Assembly: GCA_030144725.1 (NCBI GenBank)
Contig: JASKMD010000006.1
Location: 722,171-786,170 of the forward strand
Reading direction: 5' to 3'
DNA: 64,000 nt
From: Haematococcus lacustris
Lineage: Eukaryota; Chlorophyta; Chlorophyceae; Chlamydomonadales; Haematococcaceae
Made by a program: the position numbers and the translations under genes. Under the pieces are notes generated by a model. The model had not been told where the DNA came from, did not search any database, and saw only the letters and a program-made list of their open reading frames with translations. Every line of letters begins with the position of its first letter. Positions within the stretch are counted from its first letter, which is position 1. Positions 2,898-51,257 of the stretch are shown in pieces.

Positions 2898-12342
<9,445 letters not shown>

Positions 12343-22213: not shown

Positions 22214-22710
22214 CAAGCATCATGCCTGCGCGGCCGGGGTGTGCTAAGCCTGTGTATCCAGCTCGACTGGCATGTCATTCATCTCATTCATCTGTCAGGT
22301 GTTGCTTGAATGCGCAAGCTGCCCGTTCAGCAGGTGTGGTGCTGTAGACTAATGCAACACCCATGCATCCACTATGCAGCACACTCGAGAGAGGTGCTCG
22401 TGTGCAGCCATACGAGCACCTCTCACGATCACGAGCTACGTCTCAAGCAGCCTAGGATCACCCTGGCCCTTACCTCAGCCCAGCGCCTCCCCCTTTTTCT
22501 TTCATAGCCCTGGTGCCTTGGTCGGACCATGTCTGGTGTGAGGATGGACCCAGCAAGCCACTTCCTTGGCCCCTTTATGGCTGCTGCCAGTCAATGGTCA
22601 GGGCTCGTGAGCTTGCCATGTTGACAATGGCCATGCGGACATTGGCTTGATACTTGAGCAAGGAGTTACATACAGATGACAAATGAAGAGAAAACAGATA
22701 TCAATAGGTT
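22214..22710. other. 3' flank of the coiled-coil gene
   Basis: No gene seen. It holds the presumed 3' UTR, a strong hairpin at 22389-22424 and the start of weak homology to the far end of the inverted duplication. Confidence 0.5.
22389..22424. repeat. Perfect 13-bp stem, 10-nt loop hairpin downstream of the coiled-coil gene
   Basis: GAGAGGTGCTCGT at 22389-22401 pairs perfectly with ACGAGCACCTCTC at 22412-22424. It starts 176 bases after the stop codon, so it could be a 3' UTR stem-loop. It could equally be a small RNA precursor or a chance palindrome. Confidence 0.8.
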
Positions 22711-23161
22711 AATCCAAGTCCTCCTCTACACCAGGACCATTGCACACTGATGCCAAGCATCCCACACATGGTCCCTGACCGCGTGGCCTTGATCACAAGA
22801 GGTGGACAAGCACAGGCGGGTGCATGGGGCTTGTCTCAGCCAGCTGCCACCTCATGTGCAAGGAGTTGTGTTGTAAGGCAGTGGCAGTGTGCAAGACTAT
22901 GGACAGGGAGCAGGCAGTCTCAAAAGGCAGCAGCCTCAATCCAGACATTACTAGACACCACCTTGTGTGAGAACAGTTCAAATACACCGTTGCCCCATGT
23001 GGGCTACTGCAAGAATGATCAGTAAACAGCACCTCAGCCTCCCTTAGTGCCGAGTCAGCTGGGCAACAGATCTAAAGCGACAGAACAGATTGACGGGCTA
23101 TGTACTTGGCACACTGGCCATGTCAAGGGAAGGGGCCAGGCGCTGGAGGGCAGGCCCCTCC

Positions 23162-26100
23162 CTACTCCACAAACGGGCCGCACTTGGGGCACGAGGCGGG
23201 GGCTGCAGGGCAACATGGCGCAAGCCAGCAGCACGTCAGCCCGCAGCCAGCCACAGCGCAGCAGGAGGCAGGCACAGGCGCCAGCAGGCAGCAGGGTGAG
23301 GGCAGGGACACTGCAAGCCTCTGAGGGGCGCAGGGCCCTGAGCCGGCTGCCCTCCCACCCAGCCTGTGAGCAAGCTATGGCCCTCACCTGAGCAGACGGT
23401 GAAGTCTGAGCAGTCGTCCTTGGTGTACAGGCAGCTCATGCCCACCAGGTGCTGCAGCTGGCCGCAGCCCTTGCCGGCGCTGCCACACACTGTGTAGCCC
23501 AGGCAGTAGGGCTTGGACCAGCTGGGCTTGCAGCCGCCAAACACCGGCTTGCACTTGATGGCGTCCAGCTGCTGCTGGCAGCGGGTCCAGGAGGTGGACA
23601 CGACCTCCCCCCTCCCCAGCACCAGCGGGCAGGCCTGGCGGTCCATCTTGATCTGCCCGCCCAGCTTGTTGTCGTCACAGGGGCACTTGCCCCGGCCCGA
23701 GCAGGAGCCGTCATTGCAGCAGCAGCGCGACTCAGCGCAGGCCTTGCAGGACGGTTTGTAGCCATATGAGCAGGAGCAGGAGTCGCAGCCCTTGTGGGGG
23801 ATGCACTGCAGCCAGGGAGGTGGGGCAGGCGGCCAGGCGATCAGCCCACTGCACCAGGGATCAACTGCCCAGGCACCTCAACCCAACCAGCCTTTGCCCC
23901 ATCAACCTAAACCAGCAGCCCAATGCTGCCCGACACAGCAGGTCAGAACATGGTGCTGTCAGGTCGGCAGGGCAGGGGTGAGCCGGGATGCGTGTAGAGC
24001 GGAGCATGTGCCTATGCTGTGACTTGGATGACAGTGAGCCTTACCTCTGGTTTGGGGCTGGGTGGAGAGGGGCTGGGTGGGCGTGGCGAGGGTGGAGGGG
24101 GGCTGGGTGGAGGTGGAGAGGGTGGAGGGGGGCTGGGTGGAGGTGGAGAGGGTGGAGGGGGGCTGGGTGGGGGTGGAGAGGGGCTGGGTGGGGGTGGAGA
24201 GGGTGGAGGGGGGCTGGGTGGAGGTGGAGAGGGTGGAGGGGGGCTGGGTGGGGGTGGAGAGGGTGGAGGGGGGCTGGGTGGGGGTGGAGAGGGGCTGGGT
24301 GGGGGTGGAGAGGGTGGAGGGGGGCTGGGTGGAGGTGGAGAGGGGCTGGGTGGGGGTGGAGAGGGTGGAGGAGGGCTAGGTGGGGGGGGGTCAGGGCTGG
24401 GTGGGGGGGGGTCAGGGCTGGGTGGGGGGGGGGTCAGGGCTGGGTGGGGGGGGGTCAGGGCTGGGTGGGGGGGGGTCAGGGCTGGGTGGGGGGGGGTCAG
24501 GGCTGGGTGGGGGGGGGTCAGGGCTGGGTGGGGGGGGGTCAGGGCTGGGTGGGGGGGGGTCAGGGCTAGGTGGGGGGGGGTCAGGGCTGGGTGGGGGAGG
24601 GTCAGGGCTGGGCGGGGGGGGGTCAGGGCTGGATGGGGGGGGGTCAGGGCTGGGTGGGGGGGGGTCAGGGCTGGGTGGGGGGGGGTCAGGGCTGGGTGGG
24701 GGGGGGTCAGGGCTGGGTGGGGGGGGGTCAGGGCTGGGTGGGGGGGGGGTCAGGGCTGGGTGGGGGGGGGGTCAGGGCTGGGTGGGGGGGGGTCAGGGCT
24801 GGGTGGGGGGGGGTCAGGGCTGGGTGGGGGGGGGTCAGGGCTGGGTGGGGGGGGGTCAGGGCTGGGTGGGGGGGGGTCAGGGCTGGGTGGGGGGGGGGTC
24901 AGGGCTGGGTGGGGGAGGGTCAGGGCTGGGCGGGGGGGGGTCAGGGCTGGGTGGGGGGGGGTCAGGGCTGGGTGGGGGGGGGTCAGGGCTGGGTGGGGGG
25001 GGGGTCAGGGCTGGGTGGGGAAGGAGAGGGGCTGGGTGGGGGTGGTGAGGGGCTGGGCGGGGATGGAGAGGGGCTGGGTGGGGATGGCGAGGGGCTGGGC
25101 GGGGATGGGGAGGGAGGTGGAGAGGGGCTGGGAGGGGAGGGGAACTTCTTGCACGAGTAGTCACCTGCACACGCAATGCAGCGCTGGGTTAGACACGGCA
25201 ACAGCACAGCCTGATGCAAGCCTCATGCCAACCTTGTGCCAGGCATGCACTGCCACATGTGACGTGCTGTTGACCCCACACAGTAGATGGATGAAGGTGT
25301 GATCTGGCGGGTGTGAGGTGGGTGGTCGAGCTGGCCACTGACCTTTGCAGACCACGAAGTGGTCACAGTCCCCGGTTGCGACGCAGGTCTTGCCCAGATA
25401 TCCCTCGATCAGCGAGCAGTTGGCGTTGTCCTTGCACTTGGTGGTGCCGTAGCAGTTGACGAAGGTGGTGGGGTTGCAGTTGGCCACAGGGCTGCACACG
25501 ACGTTGTTGCACTGCTTCCTGCACTGGGCGCGGTTGCTGCCGGTGCAGAAGTCGATGCACTTCAGCGGCTCGCCCATATTGTTTGCCAGGCAGCCCTGCG
25601 CCTTGCACGTCCCTGATGAGCAGCAGCACTTGGTGCCCGTGTAGCCGTAGTGCAGGAAGCCGCCGGGGCACTGCGGGGTAGGGCAGCAGGGCAGGGTCGA
25701 CAGGGATGGCTCACAGCTGCGGCCAAGATGGCTGTGGACAGGCAGGCTGGAACCGGGGTGGACTACACAAGGGCAGCATGCGCGAGCAGGTGGGCTGGGG
25801 AGGAAAGCACATATGGGGCGCGCTGGCTCGGACAGTGCTCAGAAAGTGCAAGCCGACAGCAATGTGGGCGGGGAGGCATAGCAGGTCTCACCTTGGAGCA
25901 GTCATTGCAGGCGGAGGCGGCGGAGGCCAGGCACAGCACCAGCGCCGCGACCAGGAGCGACGGAGACAAGCCGCGAGGCCTGCACAGGGCAGCGGATGAG
26001 CGGCGGCAAGTCTCGGAAGCGCCGATGCGCCTCGACCCCACCCTTGGCGGGATGCAAGGCGATGTATGCAAGCAGAACAATGCTACGATGCGATGCGGAG

Positions 26101-26210
26101 GACGCTGTTAGCAATCTATTCGATGCCGCCGCGATGGGTCGTGTGAGCGTGCAAGTCTCGTTAGGTGCCGGCAGGGCTGCGAGGCGCGCTGTAAGGCTCA
26201 CTCACCTCAT
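23162..26210 (-). CDS. Secreted cysteine-rich/proline-rich protein, left copy (two exons lost, frame-broken repeat)
   Basis: Function unknown; probably an extracellular-matrix or cell-wall protein. Exons: 26210-26206 (Met plus two bases), 25979-25892, 25670-25343, 25164-24045, 23805-23388 and 23202-23162. A signal peptide (SLLVAALVLCLASAASAC) leads into a Cys-rich module ending CDHFVVCK. Next comes an SPSPP/SPDPPPP repeat exon, then a second Cys-rich module with YCLGYTVC and CSDFTVCS, and the tail CPKCGPFVE. Compared with the mirror gene at 30175-34241 it lacks the middle Cys module and a short proline exon, and residues SCDY (one Cys) in exon 3. The exon loss keeps frame. The repeat exon does not: 1120 bases, where 3n+2 is needed, with the first in-frame TGA near 24983. 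It could be a decaying copy, or the C runs could be mis-assembled. The mixture of Cys modules and Pro-rich rods resembles volvocine matrix proteins, but I recognise no pherophorin domain. Confidence 0.75.
24375..25020. repeat. 21-bp coding VNTR, left copy (SPDPPPP heptapeptide)
   Basis: About 30 tandem 21-bp units, each containing a run of eight to ten G (C on the coding strand). In the intended frame a unit reads Ser-Pro-Asp-Pro-Pro-Pro-Pro. Another frame contains TGA in every unit. Unit length varies by one base wherever the C run changes. Confidence 0.92.
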
Positions 26211-27065
26211 CTTGAAGCCTTCACTGGCAGCCTGGTCGACTGCGATGCGCCTCAGGGTCGGCGGGACTCGCTAGGTGTTGTAGCCGGAGCGAGCTGCAGG
26301 GCTTTGATGCCTGCGTACTGATGCGCAAGCCTGCAGGTTGCTGAGCCTGCACTGGTCTCGGTCTGCTCTGCGCCTGCTTTTGTAGTCTCGTGAAACCAGA
26401 TGTCTGGGCCCGGACGATTAAATCACACTTCATCACTGGAGCACGCCTCGAGGCGCATCATGGTGCGACTACGCTGGCGAGCGAGGCACCGGCAGCGCAC
26501 CCGACATTTAGCCTTGGAACCGTTTCATCGACACTGAAACTTCGCAAGACAACGGTGGAAATTGGCAGAGCCGAAGGCCGGTCCCAGACTGAGCACCAGT
26601 TGCCTAGCCCCACCTGCCCTTGCCTTCAACACCTGACCCTTGCCCTCCACATACTCTTCTACTACTACCTTCCATTCTCTGCCACCCCTTCACAGCCCAT
26701 CCAGCAGGCCTTTTCTTCTGCTTGCCCTACCCCTGCATGCCTTGTCCTTGCTGGCACAAATGCTGCTGGCTGCGGGGGTTACAAGCCTGGTAATCCGCCC
26801 AGCTACAACAGCACGGCGCTCAACGTTGTGCTGGTGGCCACAGCCATGCTCACCACCACGTCGTGTGAAGGCCATACTAACCCATCTTTATCACATGCCG
26901 TCTTTATTGTGCCTGTCTTTGCAGAGGCACTACTCATGAAACCCAAGACATCAATGCAAAACATGAGGTGTTGACCTGTGAGGGTGTTGACCTGAGAGTG
27001 TTGAACTGAGAGTGTACCCTTGATGACTACAACCCCAATCGCTAATGCTTTTGCAGGAGAACACG
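26211..27065. promoter_or_regulatory. Upstream region of the left cysteine-rich gene
   Basis: The part up to 26887 is mirrored at 29495-30174 and must carry the promoter and 5' UTR of both copies. A TATA-like CTTTTGTAG (CTACAAAAG on the gene strand) lies about 170 bases before the ATG. From 26888 to 27065 the sequence is unique spacer with no gene. Confidence 0.5.
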
Positions 27066-29165
27066 CGGGGCGGGGCGGGGCGGGGCGGGGCGGGGCGGGG
27101 CGGGGCGGGGCGGGGGCGGGGCGGGGCGGGGCGGGGCGGGGCGGGGCGGGGCGGGGCGGGGCGGGGCGGGGCGGGGCGGGGCGGGGCGGGGCGGGGCGGG
27201 GCGGGGCGGGGCGGGGCGGGGCGGGGGCGGGGCGGGGCGGGGCGGGGCGGGGCGGGGCGGGGCGGGGCGGGGCGGGGCGGGGCGGGGCGGGGCGGGGCGG
27301 GGCGGGGCGGGCGGGGCGGGGCGGGGCGGGGCGGGGCGGGGCGGGGCGGGGCGGGGCGGGGCGGGGCGGGGCGGGGCGGGGCGGGGCGGGGCGGGGCGGG
27401 GCGGGGCGGGGCGGGGCGGGGCGGGGCGGGGCGGGGCGGGGCGGGGCGGGGCGGGGCGGGGGCGGGGCGGGGCGGGGCGGGGCGGGGCGGGGCGGGGCGG
27501 GGCGGGGCGGGGCGGGGCGGGGCGGGGCGGGGCGGGGCGGGGCGGGGCGGGGCGGGGCGGGGCGGGGCGGGGCGGGGCGGGGCGGGGCGGGGCGGGGCGG
27601 GGCGGGGCGGGGCGGGGCGGGGCGGGGCGGGGCGGGGCGGGGCGGGGCGGGGCGGGGCGGGGCGGGGCGGGGCGGGGCGGGCGGGGCGGGGCGGGGCGGG
27701 GCGGGGCGGGGCGGGGCGGGGCGGGGCGGGGCGGGGCGGGGCGGGCGGGGCGGGGCGGGGCGGGGCGGGGCGGGGCGGGGCGGGGCGGGGCGGGGCGGGG
27801 CGGGGCGGGGCGGGGCGGGGCGGGGCGGGGCGGGGCGGGGCGGGGCGGGGCGGGGCGGGGCGGGGCGGGGCGGGGCGGGGGCGGGGCGGGGCGGGGCGGG
27901 GCGGGGCGGGGCGGGGCGGGGCGGGGCGGGGCGGGGCGGGGCGGGGCGGGGCGGGGCGGGGCGGGGCGGGGCGGGGCGGGGCGGGGCGGGGCGGGGCGGG
28001 GCGGGGCGGGGCGGGGCGGGGCGGGGCGGGGCGGGGCGGGGCGGGGCGGGGCGGGGCGGGGCGGGCGGGGCGGGGCGGGGCGGGGCGGGGCGGGGCGGGG
28101 CGGGGCGGGGCGGGGCGGGGCGGGGCGGGGCGGGGCGGGGCGGGGCGGGGCGGGGCGGGGCGGGCGGGGCGGGGCGGGGCGGGGCGGGGCGGGGGGGCGG
28201 GGCGGGGCGGGGCGGGGCGGGGCGGGGCGGGGCGGGGCGGGGCGGGGCGGGGCGGGGCGGGGCGGGGCGGGGCGGGGCGGGGCGGGGCGGGGCGGGGCGG
28301 GGCGGGGCGGGGCGGGGCGGGGCGGGGCGGGGCGGGGCGGGGCGGGGCGGGGCGGGGCGGGGCGGGGCGGGGCGGGGCGGGCGGGGCGGGGCGGGGCGGG
28401 GCGGGGCGGGGCGGGGCGGGGCGGGGCGGGGCGGGGCGGGGCGGGGCGGGGCGGGGCGGGGCGGGGCGGGGCGGGGCGGGGCGGGGCGGGGCGGGGCGGG
28501 GCGGGCGGGGCGGGGCGGGGCGGGGCGGGGCGGGGCGGGGCGGGGCGGGGCGGGGCGGGGCGGGGCGGGGCGGGGCGGGGCGGGGCGGGGCGGGGCGGGG
28601 CGGGGCGGGGCGGGGCGGGGCGGGGCGGGGCGGGGCGGGGCGGGGCGGGGCGGGGCGGGGCGGGGCGGGGCGGGGCGGGGCGGGGCGGGGCGGGGCGGGG
28701 CGGGGCGGGGCGGGGCGGGGCGGGGCGGGGCGGGGCGGGGCGGGGCGGGGCGGGGCGGGGCGGGGCGGGGCGGGGCGGGGCGGGGCGGGGCGGGGCGGGG
28801 CGGGGCGGGGCGGGGCGGGGCGGGGCGGGGCGGGGCGGGGCGGGGCGGGGCGGGGCGGGGCGGGGCGGGGCGGGGCGGGGCGGGGCGGGGCGGGGCGGGG
28901 CGGGGCGGGGCGGGGCGGGGCGGGGCGGGGCGGGGCGGGGCGGGGCGGGGCGGGGCGGGGCGGGGCGGGGCGGGGCGGGGCGGGGCGGGGCGGGGCGGGG
29001 CGGGGCGGGGCGGGGCGGGGCGGGGCGGGGCGGGGCGGGGCGGGGCGGGGCGGGGCGGGGCGGGGCGGGGCGGGGCGGGGCGGGGCGGGGCGGGGCGGGG
29101 CGGGGCGGGGCGGGGCGGGGCGGGGCGGGGCGGGGCGGGGCGGGGCGGGGCGGGGCGGGGCGGGG
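27066..29165. repeat. 2.1-kb (GGGGC)n pentanucleotide array
   Basis: About 420 copies of GGGGC. Occasional four-, six- or longer-base units occur (for example near 27114, 27223, 27308, 27680, 28163 and 28190). The last 650 bases are free of length variants. It sits between the two arms of the inverted duplication. Any open frame across it (Arg-Gly-Gly-Ala-Gly repeats) is an artefact of a stop-free unit. G4 folding on the plus strand is expected from composition. Confidence 0.98.
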
Positions 29166-30174
29166 ATGCTGCCAGGGATGTTAGAGCCTTGTGTGTATGT
29201 CAGGCCTAGACATGTGGTCCCTAGTGGGTGGGGGTGTTCTATTCCTTTCTTCTTCCAGATAGCTGGGAGGTGCGTGGGGGTGTTTTGGGAGTGCAGAGCG
29301 TCTTTTGAAATGTGGGAGAATGCTGAGGGCTATGACGATATGTTTCAACGGATGGTGGTGACCCCAGGTCTTTCTTTATACTGTCTCTTCCTAGTTTGGC
29401 TTCGCCTTCCTCCCCAGACGGTGCTTTTCCTCTTCGTAGCCTCTATCTTTATATAGAAAAACAAAGATTGCGAGATCACTGTATGATGATCTTTAGATGG
29501 GTTAGTATGGCCTTCACACGACGTGGTGGTGAGCATGGCTGTGGCCACCAGCACAACGTTGAGCGCCGTGCTGTTGTAGCTGGGCGGATTACCAGGCTTG
29601 TAACCCCCGCAGCCAGCAGCATTTGTGCCAGCAAGGACAAGGCATGCAGGGGTAGGGCAAGCAGAAGAAAAGGCCTGCTGGATGGGCTGTGAAGGGGTGG
29701 CAGAGAATGGAAGGTAGTAGTAGAAGAGTATGTGGAGGGCAAGGGTCAGGTGTTGAAGGCAAGGGCAGGTGGGGCTAGGCAACTGGTGCTCAGTCTGGGA
29801 CCGGCCTTCGGCTCTGCCAATTTCCACCGTTGTCTTGCGAAGTTTCAGTGTCGATGAAAACGGTTCCAAGGCTAAATGTCGGGTGCGCTGCCGGTGCCCT
29901 CGCTCGGCCAGCGTAGTCGCACCATGATGCGCCTCGAGGCGTGCTCCAGTGATGAAGTGTGATTTAATCGTCCGGGCCCAGACATCTGGTTTCACGAGAC
30001 TACAAAAGCAGGCGCAGAGCAGACCGAGACCAGTGCAGGCTCAGCAACCTGCAGGCTTGCGCATCAGTACGCAGGCATCAAAGCCCTGCAGCTCGCTCCG
30101 GCTACAACACCTAGCGAGTCCCGCCGACCCTGAGGCGCATCGCAGTCGACCAGGCTGCCAGTGAAGGCTTCAAG
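29166..30174. promoter_or_regulatory. Upstream region of the right cysteine-rich gene
   Basis: Bases 29166-29494 are unique spacer with no gene. From 29495 the sequence mirrors the left gene's upstream region. A TATA-like CTACAAAAG occurs at about 30000, some 175 bases before the ATG at 30175. Confidence 0.5.
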
Positions 30175-33100
30175 ATGAGGTGAGTGAGCCTTACAGCGCG
30201 CCTCGCAGCCCTGCCGGCACCTAACGAGACTTGCACGCTCACACGACCCATCGCGGCGGCATCGAATAGATTGCTAACAGCGTCCTCCGCATCGCATCGT
30301 AGCATTGTTCTGCTTGCATACATCGCCTTGCATCCCGCCAAGGGTGGGGGTCGAGGCGCATCGGCGCTTCCGAGACTTGCCGCCGCTCATCCGCTGCCCT
30401 GTGCAGGCCTCGCGGCTTGTCTCCGTCGCTCCTGGTCGCGGCGCTGGTGCTGTGCCTGGCCTCCGCCGCCTCCGCCTGCAATGACTGCTCCAGGGTGAGA
30501 CCTGCTATGCCTCCCCGCCCACATTGCTGTCGGCTTGCACTTTCTGAGCACTGTCCGAGCCAACGCGCCCCATATGTGCTTTCCTCCCCAGCCCACCTGC
30601 TCGCGCATGCTGCCCTTGTGTAAGCCACCCTGGTTCCAGCCTGCCTGTCCACAGCCATCTTGGCCGCAGCTGTGAGCCATCCCTGTCGACCCTGCCCTGC
30701 TGCCCTACCCCGCAGTGCCCCGGCGGCTTCCTGCACTACAGCTGCGACTACGGCTACACGGGCACCAAGTGCTGCTGCTCATCAGGGACGTGCAAGGCGC
30801 AGGGCTGCCTGGCGAACAATATGGGCGAGCCGCTGAAGTGCATCGACTTCTGCACCGGCAGCAAGCGCGCCCAGTGCAAGAACCAGTGCGACAACGTCAT
30901 GTGCAGCCCTGTGGCAAACTGCAACCCCACCACCTTCGTCAACTGCTACGGCACCACCAAGTGCAAGGACAACGCCAACTGCTCGCTGATCGAGGGATAT
31001 CTGGGCAAGACCTGCGTCGCAACCGGGGACTGTGACCACTTCGTGGTCTGCAAAGGTCAGTGGCCAGCTCGACCACCCACCTCACACCCGCCATATCACA
31101 CCCTCATCCACCTACTGTGTGGGGTCAACAGCACGTCACATGTGGCAGTGCATGCCTGGCACAAGGTTGGCATGGGGCTTGCATCAGGCTGTGCTATTGC
31201 GGTGTTTGACCCAGCGCTGCATTGCGTGTGCAGGCGACTACTCGTGCAAGAAGTTCCCCTCCCCTCCCAGCCCCTCTCCACCTCCCTCCCCATCCCCGCC
31301 CAGCCCCTCGCCATCCCCACCCAGCCCCTCTCCATCCCCGCCCAGCCCCTCACCACCCCCACCCAGCCCCTCTCCTTCCCCACCCAGCCCTGACCCCCCC
31401 CCACCCAGCCCTGACCCCCCCCCACCCAGCCCTGACCCCCCCCCACCCAGCCCTGACCCCCCCCCGCCCAGCCCTGACCCTCCCCCACCCAGCCCTGACC
31501 CCCCCCCACCCAGCCCTGACCCCCCCCCACCCAGCCCTGACCCCCCCCCACCCAGCCCTGACCCCCCCCCACCCAGCCCTGGACCCCCCCCACCCAGCCC
31601 TGACCCCCCCCCACCCAGCCCTGACCCCCCCCCACCCAGCCCTGACCCCCCCCCCGCCCAGCCCTGACCCTCCCCCACCCAGCCCTGACCCCCCCCCACC
31701 CAGCCCTGACCCCCCCCCACCCAGCCCTGACCCCCCCCCACCCAGCCCTGACCCCCCCCCACCCAGCCCTGACCCCCCCCCGCCCAGCCCTGACCCTCCC
31801 CCACCCAGCCCTGACCCCCCCCCACCCAGCCCTGACCCCCCCCCACCCAGCCCTGACCCCCCCCCACCCAGCCCTGACCCCCCCCCCACCCAGCCCTGAC
31901 CCCCCCCCACCCAGCCCTGACCCCCCCCCACCCAGCCCTGACCCCCCCCCACCCAGCCCTGACCCCCCCCACCCAGCCCTGACCCCCACCCACCCAGCCC
32001 CCCTCCACCCTCTCCACCCCCACCCAGCCCCTCTCCACCTCCACCCAGCCCCCCTCCACCCTCTCCACCCCCACCCAGCCCCCCTCCACCCTCTCCACCT
32101 CCACCCAGCCCCCCTCCACCCTCTCCACCCCCACCCAGCCCCCCTCCACCCTCTCCACCCCCACCCAGCCCCTCTCCACCCCCACCCAGCCCCCCTCCAC
32201 CCTCTCCACCCCCACCCAGCCCCCCTCCACCCTCTCCACCCCCACCCAGCCCCTCTCCACCCCCACCCAGCCCCCCTCCACCCTCTCCACCCCCACCCAG
32301 CCCCCCTCCACCCTCTCCACCCCCACCCAGCCCCCCTCCACCCTCGCCACGCCCACCCAGCCCCTCTCCACCCAGCCCCAAACCAGAGGTAAGGCTCACT
32401 GCCATCTCAGTCACAGCCTAGGCACATGCTCCGCTCTACACGCATCCCCGCTCACCCCTGCCCTGCCGACCTGACAGCACCACACCTCAGTCACCAGGGC
32501 TGAAGCCTACCGGTGATGCACAGACCCTGCCCCACCTTGTGCCGCCCTTGCCCCGCAGTGTGTGCCCCACTACACCAAGTGTGGCTTGAAGTCCAAGTGC
32601 TGCAGGCCCCCCCACTACGGCGAGGGCAAGGGCATCTGCAAGCACAAGCAGTGCTGCGACAACCACCTGGGGGAAGATGTGCTGGTGTGCCAGGCTGGGG
32701 CAGGCGGGGTCGACATCAGTGTGCTGACACGAGGCGGCAGCAGCAGCGGCTGTGCGGGCCTGGTGTGCCATGTGGCGCCTGACTGCAAGGGCTACTGCCT
32801 GGGCTACACCACCTGCTCCCCCTCCTACCCGGCCAGGCAATCAGGCGCCCAGTACTGCAACCAGGCCTGCGTGCTGGACACCAGCTGCAACAAGTTCACC
32901 GTCTGCTCAGGTCAGTGAAACCGCAGCTGACTGTGCGGCCTGACGGTCAGCCACACCGCCCGTCACACTGCCAGTCAGCCACACTGCCTGCCTGCCTGCT
33001 TGCTGGACACGGCCAGCCTTCTGACTTGCCAGCATGGGACCTGCACCAGGACCACCCCCCTCTAGGCCAGTCCCAGCCCTGCTGCCACCCACCAACAGCC

Positions 33101-34241
33101 ATGTGCTGCTGGTCGTCCTCCTTGCTCCCTCCTCTCCAGCCAGCCCTGACGGATGCCTTGCCTTGCTTGGGCCTCGTTTGGGGCTCAGTCCTGCTGTGCT
33201 GACACAATGGTTGAGTGCAGAGAAGTGCCTGCCCCCGCCCCCTCCCCCCAAGCCGCCCTCACCACCCTCACCATCCCCACCGCAGAAGGTAAGCACCGCG
33301 CCTGACTGAGCACATGCAGCACATGCAGCACATGCAGCACTAGCAGTCAAGCAGGCACAATAAGGGACCCCTCCAGTGCATCGGGGGACAGCCTGCTGGT
33401 GGTGCAGATACCCTGCCCCAACCTGTGCTGCCCTGCCCCTGCCCCTGTTCCATGTCCTGACCTGCTGTGTCGGGCAGCATTGGGCTGCTGGCTTTAGTTT
33501 CTGGGGCAAAGGCTTCTTGGGTTGAGGTGCCTGGGCAGTTGATCCCTGGTGCAGTGGGCTGATCGCCTGGCCGCCTGCCCCACCTCCCTGGCTGCAGTGC
33601 ATCCCCCACAAGGGCTGCGACTCCTGCTCCTGCTCATATGGCTACAAACCGTCCTGCAAGGCCTGCGCTGAGTCGCGCTGCTGCTGCAATGACGGCTCCT
33701 GCTCGGGCCGGGGCAAGTGCCCCTGTGACGACAACAAGCTGGGCGGGCAGATCAAGATGGACCGCCAGGCCTGCCCGCTGGTGCTGGGGAGGGGAGAGGT
33801 CGTGTCCACCTCCTGGACCCGCTGCCAGCAGCAGCTGGACGCCATCAAGTGCAAGCCGGTGTTTGGCGGCTGCAAGCCCAGCTGGTCCAAGCCCTACTGC
33901 CTGGGCTACACAGTGTGTGGCAGCGCCGGCAAGGGCTGCGGCCAGCTGGAGCACCTGGTGGGCAGGAGCTGCCTGTACACCAAGGACGACTGCTCAGACT
34001 TCACCGTCTGCTCAGGTGAGGGCCATAGCTTGCTCACAGGCTGGGTGGGAGGGCAGCCGGCTCAGGGCCCTGCGCCCCTCAGAGGCTTGCAGTGTCCCTG
34101 CCCTCACCCTGCTGCCTGCTGGCGCCTGTGCCTGCCGCCTGCTGCGCTGTGGCTGGCTGCGGGCTGACGTGCTGCTGGCTTGCGCCATGTTGCCCTGCAG
34201 CCCCCGCCTCGTGCCCCAAGTGCGGCCCGTTTGTGGAGTAG
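30175..34241 (+). CDS. Secreted cysteine-rich/proline-rich protein, right copy (full exon set, frame-broken repeat)
   Basis: Function unknown; likely an extracellular-matrix protein. Exons: 30175-30179 (Met plus two bases), 30407-30494, 30716-31055, 31234-32388, 32559-32910, 33221-33288, 33598-34015 and 34201-34241. The signal peptide is SLLVAALVLCLASAASAC. Three Cys-rich modules follow, separated by proline-rich rods: A (30716-31055, ending CDHFVVCK), B (32559-32910, starting CVPHYTKCG and ending CNKFTVCS) and C (33598-34015, starting CIPHKGCDSC and ending CSDFTVCS). B and C share YCLGYT and the final C-x3-F-x-V-C, so the modules are internal duplicates. All phases fit except the repeat exon: 1155 bases where 3n+2 is needed. 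As written, the frame meets TGA near 31665 after about 20 heptapeptides. Either the C runs are mis-called, or the protein really ends in the rod, or unseen splicing restores frame. Confidence 0.8.
31385..31990. repeat. 21-bp coding VNTR, right copy
   Basis: About 29 tandem 21-bp units (CCCTGAC, a C run, ACCCAG). Starts of TGA at 31391, 31412 and 31433 show the exact period. Units with an extra or missing C near 31580, 31640, 31800 and 31880 shift the frame. From about 31990 to 32380 it grades into a CCCCCTCCACCCTCTCCACC-type Ser-Pro repeat that is steadier in frame. Confidence 0.92.
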
Positions 34242-35568
34242 GGAGGGGCCTGCCCTCCAGCGCCTGGCCCCTTCCCTTGACATGGCCAGTGTGCCAAGTA
34301 CATAGCCCGTCAATCTGTTCTGTCGCTTTAGATCTGTTGCCCAGCTGACTCGGCACTGAGGGAGGCTGAGGTGCTGTTTACTGATCATTCTTGCAGTAGC
34401 CCACATGGGGCAACGGTGTATTAGAATTGTTCTCATACAAGGTGGTTTCTAGTAATGTCTGGAATGAGGCTGCTGCCTTCTCAAACTGCCTTCTCCCTGT
34501 CCATAGTCTTGCACACTGCCACGACTGCCCATACAACACAACTCTTTGCACATGAGGTGGCAGCTGGCTGAGACAAGCCCCATGCGGCCGCTTGTGCTTG
34601 TCCACCTCTTGTGATCAAGGCCTTGAGGTCAGGGACCATGTGTGGGATGCTTGGCATCAGTATGCAATGGTCCTGATGCAGAGGAGGATTTTGGACTGAC
34701 CATTTGAGATTTTTCATTCATCATCAGTTATCAGTCGGTTGCTGTCAATTTGCTAGATTTTACGGGGAAACTGCAATTCTTCCTCCCCCCGTAATGTATA
34801 GGGATTCCAATGTAAAGCTCTCTGCCCCATTACTGAGGCAGTTGGCCGCGTGGCCCTTATTCACATGGCAAGCACATGGGTCACACTGCGCCCTGTACCG
34901 CCTCCCAGGGGCGCAAACCCAGCATACGGAAGGCTGCTGGTAAACACCAGCACCAACACTGCTCCTCGTGCACGGAATTGTCATGCAAGAAAAGGAAAGG
35001 GTGCTGGCATGTGGGTAGTCTACCTCTTCTTTACATCCTCCAACATCCATGGGGCACCCTTGACCCTTGATGAAGCAAGTTGCAACTCCTGAGACTGCTG
35101 GTCTCCAGTGCAACGCCATTCATGCCAGCTTGCCTTGGAAAGTCCCACACTTCCAGCAGAAGGAGAAAGTAGTGCGCATTTGGTTTCACTCGCCCTCGAT
35201 CTTGTACATATAATGTTTGTATCGCTGCCTTGTACAAGTAACAGCATTCACTGCGCTCTGTACTGCTTGGATTCAATGCTAAACCTCTACTAGGCATTGC
35301 ACGCTATCCTTGCTGCCATGCAGCTCTGTGTCCTCTGGCTGAGTGGCCAGGGCTCGCTGTGAAGTGTCAGTCCTTGCCCTACCCATAGGCCCATTCGTAG
35401 TCTGAGCTGTAAGTCTGTGAAGTGTGCAGAGCATGGCGTTGCCGGCCAAGTATGGCCCCGCACGATGAAAGTTACCTTTGTCCCATGCTCATGCATTGCA
35501 AATGTGAAACCAGCATCACATCCTCAAGTACAATTCTTTGCAGGCAACACTGAAGGCGCTTGACCGCG
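34242..35568. other. 3' flank of the right cysteine-rich gene and upstream region of the phosducin-like gene
   Basis: No gene seen. The palindrome arm ends at about 34700. The rest is AT-richer unique sequence. An acceptor-like CTTTGCAG at 35537-35544, 25 bases before the ATG, hints at a 5' UTR intron in the following gene. Confidence 0.5.
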
Positions 35569-48322: not shown

Positions 48323-51257
48323 TTAGGCTGCGGTGAGGGCGCAGGGCTCCAGCTCCCCCACTATGGGGCTGGAGGCCACATGCCAGGTCAGGGGTGCCCC
48401 TGGCTGCGTGCTGTTGGGCTGGAGGCTGCCCCGCTGCAGCAGGTGGGAGGTGGAGAAGAAGTAGACGCCCTCGTGCTGCACACACGGGCAGGTCAGAGCA
48501 GCAGGGCAGGATGGACAGTGCAAGGGGTGGGCAGCAGGACAGACAGACTGGGTGTCACTATCATCATGAGCACAGCTGCTGGCTTGTACTGGGACTGGCT
48601 TACTGGCTAACAATAATAACAAAACAATTACAATAATAATAATACTAAAATGGGTTACTGGGTGACATAAGAAACAGTAATGCGGATTAGGTTACCTAAC
48701 GCCACGCTGGCCAGGGTCCCAGCAAGCCTCGCAGCACTCACCCAGCGCACCCCCAGACTGCCTGGTCTGACCCTGTCTCACTACACGGCCAGGTCTGACC
48801 CTGAGTGTGACCCAGAGTGTGACCCACCAGGGAGCCACCCCCACCCACCCACCGGTTGCAGCCCGGCCTTGAAGCTGCCCTGGAACATGGAGCCGTCCCG
48901 ATGCACCCAGTGCCCACTGGTCACCCCGCCCTCCTCCCACTCGCCCACAATCTGGCAGCCCTCGTGCTGGTAGTGGTAGGTCCCCTGCGGCGCAGCACTC
49001 TTTCCTGAGCGAGGCAGTGGGGCATGCTGGCAAGCAGCGCAGTGAAGGCAGCAGACACCGCAATGGCGCCACACTCCAAGTGTGATGAGAGAGGGTGGAG
49101 CAGCGTCCACCATGAATGCGGGTTGTTCGGTGATTGAGTGCCATGTAGCATGCGGTTTGGTAGGTGATGGATGATGAATGGGTCCCAAGGCAAGTTTTGG
49201 TAGGTAGGAGGTTTGATAGATGGTTGGGTTGTGGCGCCTGGTGCAGGGCCGCAGACCAAGTGTGGTAGAAGAGCCTGGCGGGCTTTGTACCAGCGCACAA
49301 TGGCCCGGTGAGGTGTGATGCAGTGAGGAGGCTGAGCAGCAGCAGTGCAGCAGCGGTAGGGTGAGCAGCGCCGCTGCCACAAGGAGGTGGCGCAACACAG
49401 TGTGGTGGGCTACCAGGCCATGTCACTCATTGTGGGTGGACGGGCTTGGATGCTGAGACAAGGAACTTTCCTCCCAGGGCAGAGCACACAGCCTGGCTGC
49501 CATGAGCACTGTATAGGGCTGGGCAGGGCTAGGGACTCCGGGGGTAGGGGTAGAGGGAGGCAGTGGGGGGGGTAGGGGGGTGAGCGGGATGAGGAGGTTA
49601 GGGTCAGGGTCAGGGTCAGGCTGCAAGCCTCGTCATTGCTGCCCCTCTGAGGCGTATACTGGCTCATCATGAGATGGTGGTTGCATGGCTTTGGTCCTGT
49701 TGTCATCTGCAGCAGGACACGGCTCTTGTGACCGTCCTGGCAAGGACTGCCACTCTGCAGCCTGCTACAGGTGCTGCTGCCCACCGTGCCGTGCCGCTTG
49801 CCAGCCTTGAAGCTGCCATGGTACAGGTCGCCGTTGCCGTACACATACCTGCCCGTCCCTTCGTGCAGGTCAGCAACCCAGTCACCTGCATGAGAACAGC
49901 ATCATAAAACACAACATGACAATACTAAATAATAAACCATGAATCATGAATTCATCATGGAATGTGAGGCTGAATGTGTGAGACAGGTGGTGTGCGGCAG
50001 CAGGTGTGACGCAGGTGGGGTTTGCAAGCCTCCCTGGTCACACCTTCATACACGGATTTGTCAGGGTAGGTCATGCGCCCCTTGCCCTGCTTCTTGTTGT
50101 CCAGGTACTGCCCCTCATACACTGCACCAGACACACCCCAGGTGTACTTGCCCTGGACAGCAGGGAGGTAGCAGTGGGAAGAGTGGGTGGCACGGGCTGA
50201 TGGGCTGCACGGGCTGCTGGGCTGCTGGTGCGGCCTGCAGAGATTGGGCCACTCAGGCCTTGCTGCAACAAGCTTCAATGTACTAGATGCATCAATTGCA
50301 AAAACAAGTGTTGCAGGCGGCAGTCAACCTGACCCTTACCTGACTCCCACATATCTGTTGCTTTTGAAGGCTGTTAAGGGCTCAGGCACAAACTAGACTA
50401 GCACATGTTCACGTGCAAACACCGTGTTTGAGCATGGTTTCACCAGGGAGGTGTGAAAGGTCATCTGTTGGGTGTGCCGGTCCAACCTGGACTGAAACTG
50501 CCGTGCTGCAGGCCTGCTGCAAGGTGGTGAAGAGACCCGGCAGCAGCAAGTCAATGGACAGGCTGCCTGGCAAGGTGGTGACGGTGGATGAGTTCTACAC
50601 CAGCCCTGTGGGAGGTGCTTGAACCGCAACAAGCCCATCAAGCCTGTAGGCTGCAAGCCCCAGCCAGGTCAGATCCAGCGCCCATTGGAGCTGTGCTGGT
50701 GGTCAGGCCAAACAGTGGCACTGGCCTTAGGCAAGAAGTACCCTGGCCTGAGCTTCATGAAGCTGCAAGACTGCTCACCCAAGGCCCAGGCCCAGCAACA
50801 ACAATATGTGCACTAGGTACTATTCATGCTGTTGCCTACATATAAGTCACATAGCCCTAGCTGTAAGGCTATTGTGCTGGGCCACACAAAGGATAAGGGG
50901 ATTGAGTTGCCAGTATGTAACTGGCTCACCTTGCCACAACGTTTCCCATGCTGAAAAGCCCCCTCGTATGTGTCCCCTGGTTTCTCCTCTTCATCTTCCC
51001 CTGGGACTGGCGCTGGGTACTTCATAGTTCCCTGAGCAAGGCCCCTCGCATTTGTCATGGTTGGTGTTCAATGACTGCACCGCAGCGGACACAGGGCACA
51101 CCTGGCCATGAGGCAAGCCGTCTTCATCGTAGGCTCCCTCCCATACCTGCACACAGGAACGGACGAGCGCTACCGCAAGCAAGTAAGAGCGTGAAGCGAC
51201 ATGTAGGTTCAAATCTTCGATGCTTACTGGCGTGGGAGGCGCATCCTCGTCTGACAT
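48323..51257 (-). CDS. RSP10: MORN-repeat radial spoke protein, RSP10-like
   Basis: Predicted component of the radial spoke head of motile cilia. Seven exons (51257-51228, 51146-51102, 51031-50930, 50152-50044, 49885-49785, 48984-48853, 48475-48323) join in phase to 223 residues, close to the roughly 216 of Chlamydomonas RSP10 as I recall it. After a short N-terminus (MSDEDAPPTP) come MORN repeats: VWEGAYDEDGLPHGQG, DTYEGAFQHGKRCGKG, AVYEGQYLDNKKQGKGRM, SVYEGDWVADLHEGTGRYVY, DLYHGSFKAGKRHGTGTYHY and a degenerate one with IVGEWEEGG and MFQGSFKAG. The last exon is not MORN. RSP1/RSPH1 is the alternative, but that protein is longer and has an extended acidic tail that is missing here. The start is the second in-frame Met; an ATG five codons earlier is possible. 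Confidence 0.87.
49450..49515. repeat. Dispersed repeat, copy 2 (in an RSP10-like intron)
   Basis: Same-orientation match to 45768-45825. It lies within the intron between the exons ending at 49785 and starting at 48984. Confidence 0.8.

Follow-up and report, generated by a model that had tools for sequence, protein, structure and literature searches.

A head-to-head gene pair around a GGGGC array in Haematococcus lacustris, with signs of gene conversion between its inverted arms

Why the two arms of a palindrome should be free of substitutions in one part and clearly diverged in another is the question raised by a locus in the 64,000-nucleotide stretch of Haematococcus lacustris DNA analysed here (the window, corresponding to C373:722171-786170), in which two inverted arms, each with a predicted gene, flank a spacer made up mostly of GGGGC repeat. 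We consider it probable, with good confidence, that the locus is a genuine head-to-head inverted gene duplication with non-reciprocal gene conversion in cis between its arms, and that it is present in both haplotypes of the strain. Gene conversion from arm to arm is strongly supported by the distribution of differences among four copies of the arm, and the duplication appears to be older than its least diverged parts suggest.

Layout of the palindrome and its counterpart on a second contig

BLAST of the window against itself aligned positions 23951-26887 with 32482-29495 (96.2% identity, 2995 columns) and 22703-23953 with 34704-33450 (96.7%, 1257 columns), which amounts to an identity of about 96% between the arms overall. 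In the following, L1 and R1 denote the left and right arm in the window (haplotype 1, hap1), and L2 and R2 their counterparts on a second contig (haplotype 2, hap2). The parts of the palindrome, as delimited by self-BLAST, alignment and Tandem Repeats Finder (TRF), are:

22703-26887, minus strand: left arm L1, gene copy and flanks (self-BLAST, alignment)
26888-27064, no strand: left unique spacer, 177 bp, without similarity to the right spacer
27065-29165, plus strand: GGGGC array, 2101 bp, G-rich on the plus strand (TRF, run lengths)
29166-29494, no strand: right unique spacer, 329 bp, compared with the left spacer; a diverged counterpart lies beside R2 by eye
29495-34704, plus strand: right arm R1, gene copy and flanks (self-BLAST, alignment)

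An earlier reading of this DNA from its letters alone (the sequence-only reading) had described near-identical inverted arms around a spacer with a GGGGC array placed symmetrically between divergent gene copies, and this layout is borne out: the spacer measures 2607 bp including the array, whose centre at 28115 lies close to the midpoint of the inner arm ends at 28191. The array contains 421 G-runs, 408 of them with a length of exactly four, the others differing from this, and A or T occurs nowhere; by motif count, such a run of G-tracts has the potential to form quadruplexes. The array runs in a single orientation and the pieces of 177 and 329 bp beside it are mutually dissimilar; thus, it was not duplicated together with the arms, and the spacer is not a fold-back. 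Each of the two predicted genes comprises a hydrophobic N-terminus, a Cys-rich module A, a Ser/Pro-rich repeat exon (exon 4) and a module C, while the right copy has in addition a module B (exons 5-6). Accordingly, the right arm is longer owing to about 970 bp (32480-33449) that are not present in the left arm. A further kilobase-sized microsatellite, a (GGCA)n array of 1516 bp, is located in the same window at 6927-8442.

A search of the strain's own assembly (307.9 Mb in 597 contigs, with only the best candidates scored) revealed a second inverted pair on the same scaffold, at C373:476900-481537. Window positions 1-51593 are collinear with C373:504066-455001 in opposite orientation, at 86-98% identity and with unaligned stretches, 455001 being the limit of the comparison; this inverted copy is about 95% alike, and substitutions per 500-bp window mostly amount to 1-6% outside repeats. 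Gaps of 500 N at 539586-540085 and 685529-686028 separate the contigs, and the similarity between them extends from 539525, 60 bp before the end of one contig, to 686029, the first base of the contig that holds the window. Because of the gaps, the similarity up to the contig ends and the chain in opposite orientation, the second contig is most likely the other haplotype, so that two haplotigs would have been placed on one scaffold. The scaffold seems to carry both haplotypes, at C373:455001-539585 and 686029-786170, in opposite orientation and about 146 kb apart, and Chr6 is thus apparently duplicated locally in the assembly. The names H. pluvialis and H. lacustris stand for a single species. 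For H. pluvialis SAG 192.80, excerpts of the paper on its HiFi/Hi-C assembly mention 1:2 blocks between that assembly and an earlier 600-Mb draft (PMC10400597). That the second contig is instead non-allelic, representing a true large inverted duplication on Chr6, is in our view improbable: two copies do lie on one scaffold in opposite orientation, but this reading sits poorly with the 500-N gaps, with similarity that reaches the contig's first base, and with the 1:2 blocks as excerpted from PMC10400597. In either case, haplotype or large duplication, the palindrome is present twice.

Both arms and the array are present on each of the two contigs, and the kinship of the copies is a mosaic. In hap2 the array measures 1306 bp and has the same orientation as in the window, which indicates no net inversion of the spacer between the two; G-runs that are not four long make up 20.8% of it, compared with 3.1% in the window. 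If the two contigs of this one strain are taken as haplotypes, the palindrome would be older than the lineages compared.

Divergence among the four copies

The base-by-base alignment of the arms that the sequence-only reading had proposed gave 94 substitutions in 4180 aligned sites between L1 and R1 (65 in 3065 outside exon 4) and made putative conversion tracts visible. The few differences between the arms that it had pointed out hold for the inner 994 aligned sites, which contain no substitution and four one-base indels, but not for the arms as a whole, since divergence is uneven and reaches 32 of 343 sites at the outer end; the most diverged parts differ by 5-9%. When 65 differences were placed at random 20,000 times, no clean run exceeded 605 sites, as opposed to the 994 observed. 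The stretches on which the argument turns are:

29495-30492, plus strand: candidate conversion tract at the inner end of R1, free of substitutions relative to L1 at 994 sites (alignment, four-way patterns)
29495-29821, plus strand: about 326 bp of the inner tract that are not in R2, with R1 equal to L1 (four-copy comparison)
33517-34357, plus strand: second low-divergence tract (L1-R1 4/841, R1-R2 23/831)
34358-34704, plus strand: outer stretch with paralogue kinship (L1-R1 32/343, R1-R2 14/345, L1-L2 9/343)
25047-26793, minus strand: L1 and L2 without any difference (L1-L2 comparison)
32480-33449, plus strand: segment of about 970 bp in R1 and R2, not in L1 or L2, with exons 5-6 and module B; CCA shared at its ends (alignment)

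In the block that runs from the start of four-copy homology through exon 2, R2 alone deviates, at 33 of 654 sites, and no other pattern occurs, so that from the promoter region to exon 2 no substitution separates the other three copies from one another. The 729 sites between the end of exon 2 and exon 4 are mixed, with 10 R1-only, 9 R2-only, 8 paralogue sites (L1=L2, R1=R2) and 1 other. At 33517-34357, L1 differs from L2 at 5/841 sites and R1 from L2 at 9/841, in addition to the distances listed above, and the patterns are 17 R2-only, 5 with L1=R1 against L2=R2, 3 paralogue and 1 R1-only. The outer stretch 34358-34704 shows mainly paralogue kinship (17 sites, next to 8 R1-only, 5 L1-only, 3 L2-only, 3 R2-only, 1 cross and 1 other); since only 3 sites there are R2-only, R2 has not evolved fast throughout. 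When paralogue sites were set against R2-only plus shared sites, Fisher tests gave 4e-11 (outer against inner block) and 9e-7 (outer against 33517-34357), values which indicate heterogeneity and not a count of events, as sites within a tract are non-independent, and which flatter the case, as the tract limits were set after the L1-R1 differences had been viewed.

Exon 4 points in the same direction. Units of the type CCCTGACC(C/T)CC number 28 in L1 and 25 in R1 and are absent from L2 and R2 (0 each), and the variant fourth and fifth units follow in the same order in L1 and R1. The expansion thus appears to have arisen or spread in hap1 and is now found in both of its arms. The repeat type of exon 4 (window 24045-25164 and 31234-32388) is not the same in the two haplotypes, units of the SPDPPPP type having been counted in hap1 only. 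Together with the two tracts, in which R1 lies nearer to L1 than to its own allele R2, and set against the paralogue kinship of the outer flank, exon 4 indicates that the arms of one chromosome evolve in concert, and the four-copy patterns, the tests of outer against inner sites and the exon-4 units support the gene conversion that the sequence-only reading had considered. At the inner end (26794-26885 on the L side, within the ~326 bp that R2 lacks), R1 has the bases of L1, whereas five substitutions and one indel set it apart from L2; the donor was therefore L1-like and on the same chromosome.

It is probable, then, that in the haplotype of the window L1 overwrote about the inner kilobase of R1, comprising the upstream region, exon 1, intron 1 and nearly all of exon 2, and that additional conversion events evened out the exon-4 repeat as well as the 3' part of the coding region. 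The outer arm ends and the module-B segment remained distinct, and the GGGGC array is a length-variable spacer between the divergent genes. As to the mechanism, the opposite arm presumably served as template for repair; it is conceivable, at most, that this was set off by breaks in the array or by forks stalled there. If R1 gained its innermost ~326 bp, repair would have run past the old end of homology and been completed by end joining. R1 and R2 are the only copies in which module B was found. Near C373:14.33 Mb (14323001-14333000) lies a distant paralogue that has modules A and C and no separate B, and because of this the balance leans towards gain of the segment by R rather than its loss from L.

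Several observations, apart from the post hoc tract limits, weigh against this reading. The innermost ~326 bp (29495-29821) may represent a gain in R1 or a loss in R2. The four indels of the inner tract each add one base to R1, three of them within 50 bp, a pattern that points to a possibly weak consensus next to the array, where a chimeric read is conceivable. Between exon 2 and exon 4, R1 is equally far from L1 (21/746) and from R2 (20/741), and the inner block of hap2 has not been homogenised (L2-R2 33/654). Over the 1.7 kb of 25047-26793 nothing separates L1 from L2, in a locus whose alleles are mostly 1-6% apart, and exchange between haplotypes or the use of shared reads in assembly was thus involved as well. 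Finally, the structure is read from assembled contigs. Some of these points would fit a real palindrome in which only the inner kilobase of R1 is chimeric, reads from the L arm having been used beside the array: 994 sites without substitution yet with four one-base indels, and the identity of L1 and L2, are what such an error might leave behind. We regard this as unlikely, though not negligibly so, as the kinship of L1 and R1 extends to 33517-34357 and to the exon-4 repeat, both farther from the array.

The remaining alternatives fare worse. A palindrome created in assembly, by a fold-back read or by joining two loci inside the array, would be in keeping with the difficulty of sequencing GGGGC repeats and with inner arms that differ by one-base indels only. 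It is opposed by a separate contig which has the same arrangement and differs by 1-6% in most 500-bp windows, by the single orientation of the array between unrelated flanks, by the 32 differences in 343 sites at the outer arm ends and by a window without any N. A purely artefactual palindrome is thus very unlikely, and the corresponding worry of the sequence-only reading is largely, if not wholly, answered by the second contig. The fold-back in particular was rejected on account of the one array orientation, the unlike spacers and the second contig, and a head-to-head join of two haplotypes inside the window was rejected since the self-BLAST similarity stops at 22703 and 34704. Purifying selection in place of conversion deserves marginally less credit still. 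The inner tract does span the presumed promoter and some coding sequence, but 33 of the 654 sites of this block are changed in R2, with intron 1 among the parts affected; the coding changes between L1 and R1, few as they are (5 nonsynonymous and 2 synonymous in module A, 2 and 1 in module C), do not suggest strong constraint; and the shared exon-4 expansion would be left unexplained. The differences of R2 and the expansion led us to reject it. Least credible of all is that the arms are alike because the duplication is recent, as the sequence-only reading had suggested with an eye to their resemblance (about 96% overall). Both contigs carry the duplication, divergence along the arms is a mosaic, and in the outer stretch the arms are 32/343 apart while the alleles are closer (L1-L2 9/343, R1-R2 14/345). 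Youth was rejected on the grounds of the second contig and of the arm parts that differ by 5-9%.

The divergent genes and their predicted products

The two divergent genes were predicted from splice sites and frame, with start codons at 30175 (plus strand) and 26210 (minus strand). Unless stated otherwise, the exons below derive from this prediction:

30175-30179, plus strand: R gene exon 1
30407-30494, plus strand: R gene exon 2, end of the signal peptide by eye
30716-31055, plus strand: R gene exon 3, Cys-rich module A
31234-32388, plus strand: R gene exon 4, repeat linker rich in Ser and Pro, with frame breaks at poly-C runs
32559-32910, plus strand: R gene exon 5, Cys-rich module B
33221-33288, plus strand: R gene exon 6, short Pro-rich linker (end shifted by one base to a GT donor by eye)
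33598-34015, plus strand: R gene exon 7, Cys-rich module C
34201-34241, plus strand: R gene exon 8, C-terminal tail and stop
26206-26210, minus strand: L gene exon 1
25892-25979, minus strand: L gene exon 2
25343-25670, minus strand: L gene exon 3, module A, shorter by 12 bp (prediction, alignment)
24045-25164, minus strand: L gene exon 4, repeat linker rich in Ser and Pro, with frame breaks at poly-C runs
23388-23805, minus strand: L gene, module C exon
23162-23202, minus strand: L gene, last exon

A TATA-like TACAAAAG at 30001, which by eye is also found in the other three copies, is a candidate promoter element. The N-terminus reads as a signal peptide by eye, and modules A and C are related to each other (29% identity, E 6e-9). 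In L1, R1 and L2 the reading frame of the repeat exon is broken, while in R2 it stays open as far as the exon end; the breaks in the window copies occur at C-runs of 8-10, where sequencing error and true change are indistinguishable. An open frame with a protein-like translation crosses the inner part of the left arm in the direction of the array (26345-26971), its best Pfam match being DUF6951 at E 0.09, below the cut-off.

The sole relative found was P0004, a hypothetical protein of Haematococcus lacustris, the only one among 7957 scored candidates and found again among 24. In module A it matches R2 with 99% identity and in module C it matches R1 with 96%, and its sequence is without module B. 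With module C alone, a protein search returned none at E<=0.001 among 2 candidates and a PDB search gave no match. No Pfam family, the pherophorin domain included, matched modules A, B or C or P0004 at E<=1. A selection of open frames that together with P0004 made up 16 further proteins gave a single match above the Pfam cut-off, to MORN, which is unrelated to the palindrome (open frame with a MORN repeat at window 49413-49901, minus strand). Rfam at gathering scores and a tRNA scan of the window yielded nothing.

The gene product is probably secreted, Cys-rich and Ser/Pro-rich, and from the predicted sequence we infer a possible role in the wall or matrix. The label of matrix protein given by the sequence-only reading is a fair guess. 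The hydroxyproline-rich glycoproteins of the wall and matrix in volvocine algae, among them the pherophorins, share with the Haematococcus proteins a hydrophobic N-terminus and Cys-rich modules linked by Ser/Pro-rich stretches, and the absence of a Pfam match at E<=1 sets the Haematococcus modules and P0004 apart.

The array as spacer, and known relatives

It is tempting to regard the array as the motor of the palindrome: forks would stall or break there, the opposite arm would serve for repair, and both divergent promoters would be reset repeatedly. In hap1, repair would then have gone beyond the former limit of homology, extending the palindrome inward by some 0.3 kb, and the repeat spacer would be a promoter-homogenising device for the gene pair. 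We hold this idea to be doubtful. In the 331 kb of scaffold examined (170 bases left out), a nearly pure GGGGC array of 1922 bp at C373:592303-594224 has no inverted arms around it, the sole inverted match in 582-605 kb being 28 bp long and not flanking; a tight inverted repeat at C373:568814-572336, with 1.6-kb arms of 99% identity and a 266-bp spacer, contains no GGGGC in that spacer. The two roles that the sequence-only reading had offered for the array, as cause of the duplication or as a means of holding the arms apart, find no support in these comparisons. A copy of the inverted repeat at 568814-572336, about 90% alike, lies near 545 kb, and it is perhaps a mobile element.

In the open-licence literature, no nuclear gene palindrome of an alga was recognised by title among the matches listed, and nothing was found on a GGGGC repeat in a green alga or on gene conversion in a head-to-head inverted duplication of one. 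Human X palindromes are said to show the same likeness to the Haematococcus locus, and the same differences from it, as palindrome P6 of the human Y chromosome. For P6, excerpts of Hallast et al. 2013 (PMC3723533) describe conversion from arm to arm in multi-kilobase tracts and rare inversions. As in Haematococcus, inverted arms are homogenised by conversion, which is commoner than inversion; in contrast, the arms of P6 are larger, more than 99% identical and sex-linked, while those of Haematococcus are smaller, with lower and mosaic identity and no known sex linkage (PMC3723533, as excerpted).

The layout itself, of which the sequence-only reading knew no described system, has a precedent in Caenorhabditis, where divergent paralogue pairs such as F44E5.4/F44E5.5 reside in inverted repeats with a spacer, the arms resembling each other more closely in one species than across species and identity in one pair being confined to the 5' end of the genes (Zhao et al. 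2007, PMC1803023, in excerpt). Common to both systems, as far as the excerpts describe them, are paralogues arranged head to head, arms that are nearly identical even in their intergenic DNA, a spacer, 5' coding identity that in one case is kept while the rest has diverged, a structure that predates the lineages compared, and gene conversion as the proposed explanation (PMC1803023). They differ in their spacers, of which those given for Caenorhabditis measure 126 bp and, in a convergent pair, 414 bp, compared with about 2.6 kb, mostly GGGGC, in Haematococcus; and, unlike in the excerpted Caenorhabditis cases, conversion in Haematococcus is seen across two haplotypes of one strain (PMC1803023). 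Thus, the mechanism of conversion is already known, and what is new is the kilobase GGGGC spacer together with conversion resolved by haplotype. Two haplotypes of one strain of a unicellular alga would here display conversion with readable tract limits and donor beside a strongly quadruplex-prone spacer, and the locus might serve as a natural test of whether G-rich arrays promote palindrome conversion.

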